Source: Oscillospiraceae bacterium (GTDB taxonomy: Bacteria; Bacillota; Clostridia; Oscillospirales; SIG519). Taken from it: DNA of 64,000 nt. Positions 25,246 to 30,382 of the stretch are shown one piece after another. Positions within the stretch are counted from its first letter, which is position 1. Every line of letters starts with the position of its first letter. The DNA lies in the NCBI GenBank assembly GCA_015067255.1, contig SVMS01000003.1:1-64000 (forward strand), read 5' to 3'. The position numbers and the translations under genes were made by a program. The notes under the pieces are model-generated. The model did no database searches, had not been told where the DNA came from, and worked only from the letters and a program-made list of their open reading frames with translations.

Positions 25246-25274
25246 TTGACAAAGATTTTCAATCGTGGTATCAT
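25246..25274 (+). promoter_or_regulatory. Promoter of the sugar-transferase operon
   Basis: Plus-strand -35 TTGACA (25246-25251), 17-nt spacer, -10 TATCAT (25269-25274), 29 nt before the first gene, which has AGGAG before its ATG. Confidence 0.82.
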
Positions 25275-25302: not shown

Positions 25303-25935
25303 ATGTATAAAAGATTTTTTAAAAGATTTTTAGATATTGTTATTTCCTTTTTCGGACTTATTATTCTTGCTTTTCCTATGCTTGTTATAGCTATCATTGT
25401 AAAGGCAGATTCAAAAGGCCCTGTTCTTTTTAAGCAAAAGAGAGTGGGAATACATAAAACATATTTTTCAATGCCTAAATTCAGAACTATGTATGTGGAA
25501 ACTCCCGCAAATATGCCTACCCATATGCTTAATAATCCTGCCCAATGGATTACCCCTTCGGGCAAGTGGCTGAGAAAGCTGTCATTGGACGAGCTTCCTC
25601 AGATTTGGTGCATTTTTGTTGGAAAAATGTCGATAATCGGTCCTCGTCCTGCCCTTTGGAACCAAGAGGATTTAATTGCAGAGCGTGATAAATACGGTGC
25701 AAATGATATCAGACCGGGGCTGACAGGCTGGGCGCAGATAAACGGCCGTGATGAGCTTGAAATTGAATACAAAGCAAAGCTTGATGGCGAGTATGCCGAG
25801 AAAATCAGCTTTTTGTTTGACTGTAAGTGTTTCTTCGGAACTATTCTTTCTGTACTTAAGCACGACGGCGTGGTGGAAGGCGGAACAGGTGAACTGAAAA
25901 AAGAACAAGAAGAGAAGGAAACTGCCAACATATGA
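25303..25935 (+). CDS. Priming undecaprenyl-phosphate sugar transferase
   Basis: A 210-residue bacterial sugar transferase (short WcaJ/PglC type). One N-terminal hydrophobic segment (about 8-34) is followed by the cytosolic catalytic domain with KFRTM, SLDELPQIW, SIIGPRP and GLTGWAQINGRDEL. This family puts the first sugar-1-phosphate on undecaprenyl phosphate at the inner face of the membrane. Its stop overlaps the next start (ATGA). It probably starts the repeat unit whose other enzymes are encoded in the minus-strand cluster at 33-54 kb, which lacks a priming enzyme. The sugar used cannot be read from sequence. Confidence 0.94.
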   Translation: MYKRFFKRFLDIVISFFGLIILAFPMLVIAIIVKADSKGPVLFKQKRVGIHKTYFSMPKFRTMYVETPANMPTHMLNNPAQWITPSGKWLRKLSLDELPQIWCIFVGKMSIIGPRPALWNQEDLIAERDKYGANDIRPGLTGWAQINGRDELEIEYKAKLDGEYAEKISFLFDCKCFFGTILSVLKHDGVVEGGTGELKKEQEEKETANI

Positions 25936-26894
25936 AGTCTTTTGAAAAACAAAAGAAAGTTGCTGTAATAGGCGCCGGCTTTGTCGGCGCTTCAATAGCA
26001 TATGCACTGACTTTGCTAAATCTATCGGAAGAAATAGTTCTTATTGATATAAACTATAAAAAGGCACAGGGTGAAGCATACGACATTACGCACGGAGTTT
26101 CATCCTTTGGCTGTTGCCGTGTTTATGCAGGCGATTATTCAGATATTAAAAATTCCGACTTAATAATAATTACCACCGGCAGAACACGAAAAGTGGGAGA
26201 GAGCCGTCTGGATTTAATTTCAGACAATATCTCAATTATGAAAAATGTGCTCTCCCAAATAAAAAAGCACTATAATTCAGGTGTCATTCTTGTTGTTTCA
26301 AACCCTGTCGATATTTTAGTATCCCTATGTGATAAAAGCTTAGGACTTCCCGACGGCAAGGTTTTCGGAACGGGCTGTATTCTTGACAGTTCAAGATTTG
26401 TAAGCTGTGTTTCGGAACACGTCGGAGTTAACATTGATGCTGTAAAAGGATATGTTATCGGAGAACACGGGGACTCTCAGGTGCCCCTGTGGAGTTCTCT
26501 TAAGATTTCAGATATGCCTATTTCCGAATATTGTAAAAAAGAAAATATTGAATGGGACGAAAAACAAAAGCAACATATTTTTACCCGTGTTAAAAATATG
26601 GGTGCCCATATAATATCAGCAAAGGATAAAACTCATTACGGAATAGCAACCTGTGTATCTCATTTAGCAAATTCAATATTAAATGACAAGCCTGACGTAT
26701 TTCCTGTATCCTCTGTTCTTACAGGAGAATATGGTATAAACGGCGTCGCTTTAAGCGTGCTTTCCGAGGTTTCTTCTCAAGGCATTGTAAAGAGAATTGA
26801 CGCCGAGCTTAGTGCATCTGAGCTTGAGGCTCTCCAAAGCTCTGCCTGTCTTTTAAAAGACAGATTAAATCCATTACTGAAAAAGGGAGTTTAA
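25932..26894 (+). CDS. L-lactate/malate-type dehydrogenase
   Basis: A 320-residue NAD-dependent 2-hydroxyacid dehydrogenase of the LDH/MDH family. It has the Rossmann motif GAGFVG (14-19), N124 in SNPVDI, D152 and R155 in LDSSRF, and catalytic H179 in GEHGD; R92 matches the lactate-dehydrogenase arginine 109. At the specificity position it has R86, where lactate dehydrogenases carry Gln102; Arg there is the malate-dehydrogenase residue. The rest resembles LDH, so the substrate is open. It overlaps the sugar-transferase gene by 4 nt, an odd place for a fermentation enzyme. Confidence 0.9.
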   Translation: MKSFEKQKKVAVIGAGFVGASIAYALTLLNLSEEIVLIDINYKKAQGEAYDITHGVSSFGCCRVYAGDYSDIKNSDLIIITTGRTRKVGESRLDLISDNISIMKNVLSQIKKHYNSGVILVVSNPVDILVSLCDKSLGLPDGKVFGTGCILDSSRFVSCVSEHVGVNIDAVKGYVIGEHGDSQVPLWSSLKISDMPISEYCKKENIEWDEKQKQHIFTRVKNMGAHIISAKDKTHYGIATCVSHLANSILNDKPDVFPVSSVLTGEYGINGVALSVLSEVSSQGIVKRIDAELSASELEALQSSACLLKDRLNPLLKKGV

Positions 26895-26896
26895 AA

Positions 26897-28099
26897 GTGA
26901 AGCTGTTAATTGTCTGTCAGTATTATTTCCCCGAACAATTTTTAATAAATGAAATTGCCCCCGATTTAGTAAAGCAGGGGCACGAGGTAACTGTACTTAC
27001 AGGGCTTCCCAACTATCCCTCGGGCACAGTACCTGACGAATACAAAAAAGGTAAAAAACGTGATGAAATCATTGACGGAGTAAGAGTTATCCGTTGTAAT
27101 GAAATAGGCCGAAAAAAAGGAAAAATCGGACTTGTTTTAAACTATTTAAGCTTTTGCTTTTTCGGCTGTATCAAGGCAAAAAAACTAAAAGAAGAATTTG
27201 ACCTTGTTTTCAGTTATCAGCTCTCCCCCGTTTTTATGGCTCTGCCTGCTATTGCCTACAAGAAAAAGCACCGCAAGCCGTTATTTCTCTACTGTCTTGA
27301 CATTTGGCCAGAATCTGCACAGGCACACGTGCACAACGACAAAGGCTTTTTATATAAGCTTATTTCAAAATATTCAAAGAAAATTTATTCTCAGTGCGAT
27401 AAAATTGCAGTAACCTCTCAGCCCTTTATTGAATATTTAAGCAAGGTAAACGGCATAGATGAAAGTAAAATGGTTTACATTCCTCAGCACGCTGATGACA
27501 GTATGCTAAATTTCAATCTTGAAGCTGAAGATAACGAAATCGCAGACTTTATGTTTGCAGGCAACTTTGGGAAAGGACAAAGGCTTGATATTATAATAAA
27601 GGCGGCAGCTCTTCTCAAGGATAAAAATAATTTTAAAATTCATCTCGTAGGAGACGGCTCTACAAAAGATACAATAAAAGAGCTTGTTAAAGCAGAAAAT
27701 CTTGAGGACAAGGTTATTTTTCACGGTCAGATAAACCGAAAGGATATGCCTCAATATTATAAAATGGCAGATGCTTTACTTATAACCTTAAGAGGAAACA
27801 ACTTTGTAGGAAACACAATGCCCGGCAAGCTTCAAACCTATATGACTGCGGGCAAGCCTATTTTTGCATCTATAAACGGAGCAGCAAAAGAGGTTATAGA
27901 GGAATCGGGATGCGGAGCCTGTGTAGGCGCTGAGGACAGCGAAGGTCTTGCTTCAATTATGCTTGATTATATAGAGAATAAAGAAAAGTATTCTCAATGC
28001 GGTAAAAAAGCCCAAAGCTATTTCAAAGAGAATTTCACAAGAGAAATTTACATACAACGATTACAGAAGCAGCTTGAAAATCTTTTAAAGGAGCTGTAA
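26897..28099 (+). CDS. Glycosyltransferase family 4, WbuB-like (probable L-FucNAc transferase)
   Basis: A 400-residue GT4 enzyme. It opens LLIVCQYYFPEQFLINEIA, with HEVTVLTGLPNYPSG, which resembles WbuB, the UDP-L-FucNAc transferase of E. coli O26. The GT-B donor domain has GKGQRLDIIIKAA and the acidic EVIEESGCGACV region. The UDP-L-FucNAc genes lie in the minus-strand cluster, which supports this reading. Start is GTG with GGGAG upstream; it is 2 nt after the dehydrogenase. GT4 membership is firm; the donor is inferred. Confidence 0.88.
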   Translation: MKLLIVCQYYFPEQFLINEIAPDLVKQGHEVTVLTGLPNYPSGTVPDEYKKGKKRDEIIDGVRVIRCNEIGRKKGKIGLVLNYLSFCFFGCIKAKKLKEEFDLVFSYQLSPVFMALPAIAYKKKHRKPLFLYCLDIWPESAQAHVHNDKGFLYKLISKYSKKIYSQCDKIAVTSQPFIEYLSKVNGIDESKMVYIPQHADDSMLNFNLEAEDNEIADFMFAGNFGKGQRLDIIIKAAALLKDKNNFKIHLVGDGSTKDTIKELVKAENLEDKVIFHGQINRKDMPQYYKMADALLITLRGNNFVGNTMPGKLQTYMTAGKPIFASINGAAKEVIEESGCGACVGAEDSEGLASIMLDYIENKEKYSQCGKKAQSYFKENFTREIYIQRLQKQLENLLKEL

Positions 28100-28103
28100 A
28101 ATT

Positions 28104-29123
28104 ATGAAATTTAAAAAACTACTCAGAGGCAGAGCTTTGTACACTCAGGAGGATAAGCTTTGGATTGCCAGAGGTATGTGCTTCTTTGCTGTTGACTACA
28201 ACGGAAAAAGAGTAACCGATAAATACCGTGTAGGCGGTACCTTAAAATATCTTTTATCAATAAACCGTCTTTCCCGTCAGCTTTTGCGAGAAGGGATACA
28301 TCATTTATTACCCCTTAAAAACGGCAACATAATGGTAAGCGCAAAAAGAAAAGTTTATATTGTTTCTCCTGACGGCAGTATAAAAAATACCTTCAGCGGT
28401 TATTCCGGCAACAAGCCCGGACACCAAGGGGTATGCGTTACCCCCGACGGAACTGTTTTCTTTGGAGAATATACCCTTAACACTCAGCGTAATATTGACA
28501 CTAAATTATACAGAAGCACAGATAACGGCGAAAGCTTTGAATGTATTTTAACTATGTCTGGCAAAGAGGTACGTCATATTCATTTTATAAAATATGACCC
28601 TTATGAAAAATGTCTTTGGTTAGGTACAGGTGACGAGGATTTTGAATGTAAGCTTATGAAGAGCACCGATAACGCTCAAAGCTGGCAAACCATAGGCGAA
28701 GGCAGTCAGGATTGGCGAGCTATCGGAATTTGCTTTGATGAAAATTATCTTACCTGGGGCACCGATGCAGGAAGTGTTCCCGACCAAAATCATATAATCA
28801 GAATGGACCGCAAAACAAACACTCTTGAAATACTTTCAGATGCAGAAGGCCCCTGCCACGGCTGCGCAAGCTTTAAAAACGGCAGAGTTTTCATTTCCAC
28901 AGGAGTTGAAGGCGGTCAGAACGAAAAGGATAATATTGCCCGTTTAAAAGAGCTTAAGGAAAAGATACCTGTTGATGTTTTAACTGCAAAGAAGGATATT
29001 TTCCCTCTTATTCTGCAATACGGCGTTATGAGATTTCCTTTGGGAACAGAAAACACCGATAAGATTGTATTTACCCAAATGGCACTTTGCGGCGGCGGAG
29101 AAAAAATCTTTATAGAAGGCTAA
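28104..29123 (+). CDS. Sialidase-like beta-propeller protein (Asp-box repeats)
   Basis: A 339-residue protein with two Asp-box motifs, STDNGESFE (about 132-140) and STDNAQSWQ (about 185-193), and other repeating beta segments, as in BNR/sialidase-like propellers. No signal peptide or membrane segment is seen, so it appears cytosolic. It is 4 nt after the glycosyltransferase with AAGGAG before its ATG, and is the last gene of the unit. It may act on or sense the polysaccharide or its precursors; I cannot name a reaction and see no sialidase arginine triad with certainty. Confidence 0.78.
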   Translation: MKFKKLLRGRALYTQEDKLWIARGMCFFAVDYNGKRVTDKYRVGGTLKYLLSINRLSRQLLREGIHHLLPLKNGNIMVSAKRKVYIVSPDGSIKNTFSGYSGNKPGHQGVCVTPDGTVFFGEYTLNTQRNIDTKLYRSTDNGESFECILTMSGKEVRHIHFIKYDPYEKCLWLGTGDEDFECKLMKSTDNAQSWQTIGEGSQDWRAIGICFDENYLTWGTDAGSVPDQNHIIRMDRKTNTLEILSDAEGPCHGCASFKNGRVFISTGVEGGQNEKDNIARLKELKEKIPVDVLTAKKDIFPLILQYGVMRFPLGTENTDKIVFTQMALCGGGEKIFIEG

Positions 29124-29128
29124 AAAAT

Positions 29129-29160
29129 AAACTGCTCTATACATTTTAGAGCAGTTTTTG
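29129..29160 (+). terminator. Terminator of the sugar-transferase operon
   Basis: An 11-bp stem AAACTGCTCTA/TAGAGCAGTTT followed by TTG, six nt beyond the stop at 29123; the 3' arm ends in a five-T run. Confidence 0.85.
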
Positions 29161-29189
29161 TTTACAAATAATATACTTAGATGTATAAT
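29161..29189 (+). promoter_or_regulatory. Promoter of the chromate-transporter genes
   Basis: Plus-strand -35 TTTACA (29161-29166), 17-nt spacer, -10 TATAAT (29184-29189), directly after the upstream terminator and 30 nt before the start. Confidence 0.8.
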
Positions 29190-29219
29190 GATTGTAATAT
29201 TAAATATTGGAGTTATGAT

Positions 29220-29810
29220 ATGAAAGATAAGCAAAAAAACATTTTAAGTCTTTTTCTGACTATGCTTAAAATAGGGCTTTTTACCTTCGGCGGCGGTTAT
29301 GCTATGCTTGCCCTGTTGGAAAACGAGCTTATATCAAAAAAGAAATGGATTGAAAAAGATGAATTTTTAAATATGGTGGCAATTGCAGAATCTACACCGG
29401 GACCTATTGCAATAAATTCCGCTACCTATATCGGCTATAAAAGAGCAGGCTTTTTAGGCTCATTAAGTGCAACTATAGGAATATGTATTCCATCCTTTGT
29501 CATTATTTATTTAATCTCTCTTTTCTTTGATTTGTTTTTATCCTTGTCCTACGTTCAATATGCCTTTAAGGGAATTCAGGTATGTGTAGTTTTTCTCATT
29601 TTCCGTGCAGGACTTAAAATGTTTAAGGGTATTGAAAAAACACTCTTAAGTATTATAATTTTTTCTTTAACTATTATATGTATGCTTGCATTTTCACTGT
29701 TTTCTGTTTCTTTTTCTGCAGTTTTCTATATTCTTATAAGCGGTGCAGTAGGAATTTTTGCTTACCTCATAGGACTTCTTACTAAAAAGAGAAAGGAGTC
29801 CGAAAAATGA
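29220..29810 (+). CDS. chrA: Chromate transporter subunit, short ChrA type (first half)
   Basis: A 196-residue membrane protein with the CHR-domain signatures LKIGLFTFGGGYAML and AIAESTPGPIAINSATYIG and about five to six hydrophobic segments. The short CHR family works as pairs of half-size proteins. Family members export or import chromate, but for many anaerobes the true substrate is unknown. ATG at 29220 has GGAG seven bases upstream; an earlier ATG at 29181 lies inside the promoter. It overlaps the next gene by 4 nt. Confidence 0.92.
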   Translation: MKDKQKNILSLFLTMLKIGLFTFGGGYAMLALLENELISKKKWIEKDEFLNMVAIAESTPGPIAINSATYIGYKRAGFLGSLSATIGICIPSFVIIYLISLFFDLFLSLSYVQYAFKGIQVCVVFLIFRAGLKMFKGIEKTLLSIIIFSLTIICMLAFSLFSVSFSAVFYILISGAVGIFAYLIGLLTKKRKESEK

Positions 29811-30382
29811 TTTATATAAAGCTTTTTCTTACCTTTCTTGAAATCGGCGCAGTTTCTTTCGGCGGCGGCTACGGAATGATTTCTCTTATCCGTGAAAAAG
29901 TTCTTCTAAACAATTGGCTTACAGAGGGAGAGCTGCTTAATCTTATTGCTGTTTCCGAGTCAACTCCCGGTCCTATTGCTGTCAATATGGCAACCTTTAT
30001 CGGCTCAACTCAAGGCGGTTTTTGGGGCTCGTTTGTAGCAACCTTGGGAGTTATTCTTCCCTCATTTATTATCATTCTGTTTATTTGTCTGTTAATGAGT
30101 AATTTACTAAAATATTCAGGGGTCAATGCCTTTTTAAATGGTGTACGTCCCTGTGTTATCGGACTTATTATTGCAACCTCAATAACAATGCTTTTAAGTA
30201 CTGTTTTTGGAATTACAGCTATTGCCGATAGCTTTTCCTTTGATATAAAAGGCGCTGTAATTCTCGTTCTTTTAATTGCCTTTTCATTTGTCTATAAAAA
30301 AATCCGCAAAGCCTCCGCTTCCCCCATCCTTCTTGTAGTTATATCGGGAATACTGGGAGCAATAATATACGGCATAAATTAA
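29807..30382 (+). CDS. chrA: Chromate transporter subunit, short ChrA type (second half)
   Basis: A 191-residue paralogue of the preceding gene, with LEIGAVSFGGGYGMI and AVSESTPGPIAVNMATFIG at the same places. The pair would give two inverted-topology halves of one transporter. Start overlaps the previous stop (ATGA). AAAGGAGATG follows the stop but leads straight to TAA, so no third gene is present. Confidence 0.92.
   Translation: MIYIKLFLTFLEIGAVSFGGGYGMISLIREKVLLNNWLTEGELLNLIAVSESTPGPIAVNMATFIGSTQGGFWGSFVATLGVILPSFIIILFICLLMSNLLKYSGVNAFLNGVRPCVIGLIIATSITMLLSTVFGITAIADSFSFDIKGAVILVLLIAFSFVYKKIRKASASPILLVVISGILGAIIYGIN

Follow-up and report, generated by a model that had tools for sequence, protein, structure and literature searches.

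A dehydrogenase gene in a surface-polysaccharide operon

The window, by which we mean the whole 64-kb stretch of DNA analysed, carries a small operon of four genes, with a promoter-like site at one end and a terminator-like repeat at the other, and a large surface-polysaccharide gene cluster on the opposite strand. The following features were annotated:

25246–25274, + strand: sigma-70-type promoter-like site, TTGACA-17-TATCAT, with TG before the second hexamer, 29 bp ahead of the first gene (consensus scan 11/12, pattern only)
25303–25935, + strand: priming sugar-phosphate transferase (Bac_transf), first operon gene (PF02397, 9.5e-57)
25932–26894, + strand: LDH/MDH-superfamily 2-hydroxyacid dehydrogenase of the Arg102 type, R86 in its own numbering (Pfam, alignment, trees)
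26897–28099, + strand: GT4 glycosyltransferase, WcaI-like (PF00534, 1.1e-26; best NCBIfam family WcaI with 112 bits, below the cut-off of 276)
28104–29123, + strand: BNR/Asp-box-like protein, last operon gene (only a weak Pfam Sortilin-Vps10 match, 8e-4; no NCBIfam match)
29129–29157, no strand assigned: terminator-like inverted repeat of 11 pairs, with T runs on both strands (pattern only)
33439–54163, − strand: large surface-polysaccharide cluster without a priming transferase (Pfam, NCBIfam, phmmer)

A preliminary description had placed the dehydrogenase inside a polysaccharide operon, overlapping the priming sugar transferase by 4 nt and preceding a glycosyltransferase, and this arrangement was confirmed. 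The two first genes overlap in an ATGA at 25932–25935, with the GT4 gene following at 26897, 2 nt past the dehydrogenase stop. Together with the promoter-like and terminator-like ends, this gene order suggests that the dehydrogenase appears in one transcript with the priming transferase and the glycosyltransferase. Directly past the terminator-like repeat we recognized a two-gene chromate transporter-like pair (29181–30382).

From the nucleotide-sugar genes, the large cluster encodes a WecB-type epimerase, FnlB/FnlA-like proteins, RmlB, RmlA, a DegT aminotransferase and nucleotide-sugar dehydrogenases. The assembly genes are a flippase, glycosyltransferases and a Wzy-type polymerase, and an acyltransferase is also present. 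Searching the six-frame translation with phmmer gave no second priming transferase within the 64-kb window. Because the large cluster lacks a priming enzyme and the only one in the window lies in the small operon, the most economical assumption is that the small operon initiates the polymer made by the large cluster, and probably serves that polymer.

The dehydrogenase belongs to the Arg102 lineage

The ORF at 25932–26894 is intact and its product of 320 aa matched both Pfam domains of the superfamily above their cut-offs, Ldh_1_N with 3.5e-38 (131 bits) and Ldh_1_C with 5.5e-30 (105 bits). The whole catalytic set is kept. In LDH numbering, with the protein's own numbers in brackets, the residues are H68 (H54), E107 (E90), R109 (R92), N140 (N124), D168 (D152), R171 (R155), H195 (H179), T246 (T234) and I250 (I238). 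The substrate-specificity site, LDH position 102, is occupied by Arg86, in the loop TTGRTRKVGESRLDL. ORF, Pfam and alignment thus agree with the earlier claim of an intact LDH-family gene with all catalytic residues and an Arg at the specificity site. Two further basic residues are R84 (LDH 100) and K233 (LDH 245).

The residues of a canonical L-LDH were found only in part. T246 and I250 are present (T234 and I238), while Gln102 is replaced by Arg86, the acidic D/E expected at 199 (PMC9486893) by Gln183, and R173 and H188 at the FBP site by V157 and K172. The protein does not fit MalDH type 3 either, the tetrameric bacterial MDHs with R102, M199, A/S246 and P250: it has R102, together with Q199, T246 and I250, and its score with TIGR01763 was 213 bits, the cut-off being 351.85.

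A maximum likelihood tree was calculated from 54 proteins, comprising a clade of five that includes the window protein and 49 other compared sequences. The window protein fell in an Arg102 group with a support of 99/99, which takes in the malic-enzyme-linked clostridial malate dehydrogenases of the Cthe_0345/Ccel_0137 type. After all active-site and signature columns had been taken out, the group was kept with a support of 100/98. R102/Q199/G236 occurred in the clade and in 24/24 other group members compared, Q102/E199/A236 in 22 LDHs, and Arg102 in 27 of the 49 other sequences overall. The persistence of the group without the active-site columns, and the linked Q199 and G236, indicate that the Arg was inherited from a malate-type lineage. 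Judged from these alignments, Arg102 is common to the entire lineage rather than a single change within an LDH. The framing of the preliminary description, a lactate dehydrogenase whose Gln had been replaced by Arg, therefore has to be given up.

Beside R102/Q199/G236, the window protein has the LDH-like H68, T246 and I250. In LDHs, charge balance requires an acidic residue at 199. T246 is considered unfavorable for oxaloacetate, and some MDHs of the intermediate group with T246 accept both oxaloacetate and pyruvate (PMC9486893). As enzymes with mixed signatures in this framework use both substrates, some pyruvate activity would be unsurprising here. Overall, malate-type specificity is the better prediction than lactate-type specificity.

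The lactate dehydrogenase annotation

Automatic annotation would name the gene at 25932–26894 a lactate dehydrogenase, whereas its ancestry and active-site residues place it in the malate dehydrogenase lineage. With the NCBIfam L-LDH model TIGR01771 (cut-off 303.55) the window protein scored 321 bits, and a malic-enzyme-linked protein scored 373 bits. Since both exceed the cut-off, the model cannot separate Arg102 malate-type enzymes from LDHs.

The best PDB match, with ~47% identity, was 1y6j, deposited as “L-lactate dehydrogenase” and also having Arg at the 102 site. A protein near-identical to it (304/311 positions) adjoins a malic enzyme gene in the genome G1082, where the malic enzyme was recognized by eye from its sequence and not by a family search. 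We infer that 1y6j is a malate-shunt MDH of the Cthe_0345 type. Its name is probably wrong, given the near-identical protein beside a malic enzyme and the fit to the description of Cthe_0345. For the same reason we dropped 1y6j as an example of an Arg102 enzyme working as a plain LDH.

MDH genes beside malic enzyme genes are known from the malate shunt of C. thermocellum (Cthe_0345/Cthe_0344) and C. cellulolyticum (Ccel_0137/0138) (PMC3268733, PMC3561251). In C. cellulolyticum, 28% of the MDH activity remained after disruption of the Arg81 paralogue and lactate was not reduced, whereas disruption of the Gln86 paralogue removed >90% of the lactate (PMC3268733). Homologues with the same Arg acting as plain lactate dehydrogenases had been proposed as the case that would overturn the malate reading; in C. 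cellulolyticum, the nearest system with experiments, the main MDH is instead the paralogue with Arg and the main LDH the one with Gln. From the earlier proposal that the Arg confers malate specificity, the prediction of a malate-type enzyme is thus strengthened, by the grouping with the MDH lineage, by R102/Q199/G236 and by the C. cellulolyticum paralogues.

The protein could still be a plain, FBP-independent L-lactate dehydrogenase despite its Arg, and perhaps the cell's sole source of lactate. The L-LDH equivalog score, the LDH-like H68, T246 and I250, and a source genome in which no Gln102 lactate dehydrogenase was found would all fit. The same NCBIfam model, however, also names the malic-enzyme-linked protein an LDH, R102, Q199 and G236 are states of the MDH group, and in C. 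cellulolyticum it is the Gln paralogue that makes lactate (PMC3268733). We regard a plain lactate dehydrogenase as very improbable.

A divergent clade with additional basic residues

The window protein forms a clade, with a support of 100/100 and a long stem branch (0.94), together with one relative each from four further genomes of its order (G502, G225, G374 and G694). By search, its identity to these relatives is 55% for G502, 53% for G225, 53% for G374 and 52% for G694. The Arg and the catalytic set are not there by chance, because all five members keep both despite 49–54% identity to the window protein. Searching genomes more widely, by class, by phylum and among the relatives of G502, added no member to the clade, and a scan of genome contigs gave only one distant relative.

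Several states were exclusive to the clade, being found in 5/5 members and in 0/49 other sequences: Arg100, Met235 and Lys/Arg245. At position 245, Ala was found in 47 of the 49 non-clade sequences. All five members also had His247, shared with two LDHs. Positions 102 and 246 line the substrate side chain, and positions 100 and 245 are their neighbors in sequence. Further clade-only changes, again in 5/5, affect R/K173 (to Val/Ile) and H188 (to Lys/Asn), R173 and H188 being the FBP effector residues of LDH. The clade thus looks like a 2-hydroxyacid dehydrogenase freed of FBP control and with a more positive pocket, and its own basic residues may point to a substrate other than oxaloacetate. 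A bolder idea is that the clade represents a new specificity type, in which Arg100, Arg102 and Lys/Arg245 would form an enlarged anion site accepting a larger or phosphorylated 2-oxoacid; in this bacterium, the neighboring glycosyltransferases would then incorporate the resulting hydroxyacid into the surface polysaccharide. We consider this distinctly doubtful.

Genomic neighborhoods of the clade members

A survey of homologue neighborhoods placed two of the five clade members in glycan clusters and three outside. No glycan gene was seen at the other LDH/MDH loci examined, many of which spanned only 4 kb, judged by likeness to 17 queries. With five members from four genera, the association with glycan genes is a hint and not a proof, and the contexts of the clade members vary.

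The second glycan-linked member, in G374, lies in a cluster with a priming transferase, glycosyltransferases, an EpsG-family polymerase-like protein, LuxE/LuxC, an AMP ligase and a PIG-L deacetylase. Its gene overlaps the upstream LuxC by 4 nt and is followed by a GT4. Upstream of this dehydrogenase (L036:10203-17411) we found LuxE/LuxC, a thioesterase, an AMP ligase, a two-part transketolase-like pair and SDR-like genes, a set that may serve to produce an uncommon sugar or acyl group.

Two candidate explanations were rejected here. A conserved dehydrogenase-GT4 pair was ruled out, the GT4s beside the two glycan-linked members being non-orthologous, with 27% identity over only 75 aa. The dehydrogenase-GT4-PIG-L order in G374 had suggested a bacillithiol-like pathway (malate plus GlcNAc, with BshA/BshB), for which the scores were too low: the GT4s reached 53 and 55 bits with BshA (cut-off 273.7) and the deacetylase 79 with BshB1 (cut-off 182.5).

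Outside the glycan clusters, G502 has serC, the LDH/MDH-family gene and a SerA-like gene in one tight row (L066:2075-5316). In G225 and G694 the clade member adjoins a gene reading like a ThrH-type phosphatase. Serine genes near three relatives brought up a replacement of SerA (phosphoglycerate dehydrogenase), which was discarded in its simple form: a SerA-like gene directly follows the dehydrogenase gene in G502 and is also present in the source genome of the window, where a SerA-like 2-hydroxyacid dehydrogenase gene lies directly downstream of serC on contig C15.

More broadly, the clade as a whole could have switched its substrate, with R100, R102 and K/R245 binding a larger or phosphorylated 2-oxoacid such as phosphohydroxypyruvate. 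The enzyme would then have been recruited wherever needed, for example to serine synthesis in G502, and a polysaccharide role would not be the common denominator. The location of the clade-specific basic residues next to positions 102 and 246, the long stem, the serC-dehydrogenase-serA order and the ThrH-type neighbors are in favor of such a switch. On the other side, we saw no serine genes in the vicinity of the window gene, and the source genome has serC and a SerA-like gene elsewhere. Moreover, 3-phosphoglycerate has a C2 configuration opposite to that of the products of the LDH/MDH superfamily. We consider a substrate switch of this kind unlikely, though a serious contender.

A second paralogue in the source genome

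The source genome encodes only two Ldh_1 proteins, both with Arg102, and no malic enzyme was found in it. The gene of the other paralogue (contig C13) is followed by genes for HdrB-/HdrC-like proteins, HdrA, an MvhD/VhuD-like subunit, a fumarate-reductase-like flavoprotein and fumarase alpha and beta. This locus (L045:8852-19409 and L125:92-3863), in which further oxidoreductase-like genes also lie, resembles a fumarate reductase locus that is linked to Hdr and possibly electron-bifurcating. A related dehydrogenase adjoins Hdr genes in G141 (L044).

With its fumarase and fumarate reductase neighbors, the C13 paralogue is the natural candidate for oxaloacetate reduction. Given this MDH-type paralogue and the absence of malic enzyme, central metabolism does not call for a second MDH, so the window dehydrogenase could have a special role; it is probably not the housekeeping MDH of this genome. 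The preliminary description had allowed for a displaced metabolic enzyme, an alternative which is weakened by these findings. In its present form it would be an ordinary central-metabolism MDH that landed in the operon and whose product is unrelated to the polysaccharide. The unrelated contexts of the clade relatives would agree with this. Against it are the paralogue beside the fumarase and fumarate reductase genes, the missing malic enzyme, the ATGA overlap with the priming transferase, and the second glycan-cluster case with its 4-nt upstream overlap. We hold a landed MDH to be improbable.

Proposed function

Our preferred reading, which we put forward tentatively, is that the window enzyme reduces a dianionic 2-oxoacid, belongs to the MDH lineage without being a housekeeping enzyme, and supplies an (S)-2-hydroxyacid for a surface polysaccharide. 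It builds on the ancestry, the active-site residues, the gene order and the second paralogue. T246, considered unfavorable for oxaloacetate, the three of five clade members outside glycan loci and the non-orthologous glycosyltransferases beside the other two speak against it.

The enzyme would be an NAD(H)-dependent (S)-2-hydroxyacid dehydrogenase with the standard superfamily mechanism, presumably running in the direction of reduction. R171 would grip the carboxylate, H195/D168 would give the proton, R109 would polarize the carbonyl and R102 would grip a second negative group. The substrate would most likely be oxaloacetate or a larger dianionic 2-oxoacid, e.g., 2-oxoglutarate, rather than pyruvate. 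Malate would be the default product; given the added basic residues, it could also be 2-hydroxyglutarate or a different larger hydroxyacid.

An (S)-2-hydroxyacid such as L-malate would probably serve as a substituent or an acceptor in the surface polysaccharide. Malic acid (in both forms) and 2-hydroxyglutaric acid are known components of bacterial polysaccharides (PMC3210612), which makes such a use chemically reasonable. No ligase or transferase for attaching malate was recognized in the four-gene operon. A hydroxyacid for the polysaccharide is therefore plausible, and the relatives outside glycan loci, as in the serC-X-serA row, warn against assuming it. Keyword searches of the open-access literature gave no published description of an MDH/LDH gene inside a polysaccharide cluster.

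If our reading is true, this would be an example from nature of polysaccharide assembly recruiting a dehydrogenase of central metabolism, and residues 100, 235, 245 and 247 would be candidate new specificity determinants in a much-studied superfamily. For the annotation of clostridial genomes, the common L-lactate dehydrogenase model blurs Arg102 malate-type enzymes with LDHs.

Comparison with known systems

The closest known enzymes are the clostridial malate-shunt MDHs (Ccel_0137, Cthe_0345; structure 1y6j), which share with the window protein Arg102, Q199, G236, T246, I250, H68 and the tree branch. The window protein differs from them by A100R, A235M, A245K and Y247H, and by the replacement of R173 and H188. 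Its gene lies in a polysaccharide operon and not beside a malic enzyme gene, in a genome without one.

The intermediate LDH/MalDH group (Archaeoglobus fulgidus, Ignicoccus islandicus) has in common R102 together with T246 and H68, but the window protein has I250 instead of P250, and Q199 where A. fulgidus has M199 (PMC9486893). With the canonical FBP-activated bacterial L-LDHs it shares the fold, the catalytic residues and the TIGR01771 match; it has R102, Q199 and G236 for Q102, E199 and A236, and lacks R173/H188. The engineered B. stearothermophilus LDH Q102R likewise combines Arg102 with T246 and I250 on an LDH-like scaffold. That enzyme was made by one substitution, whereas the window protein represents a natural lineage with many linked changes.
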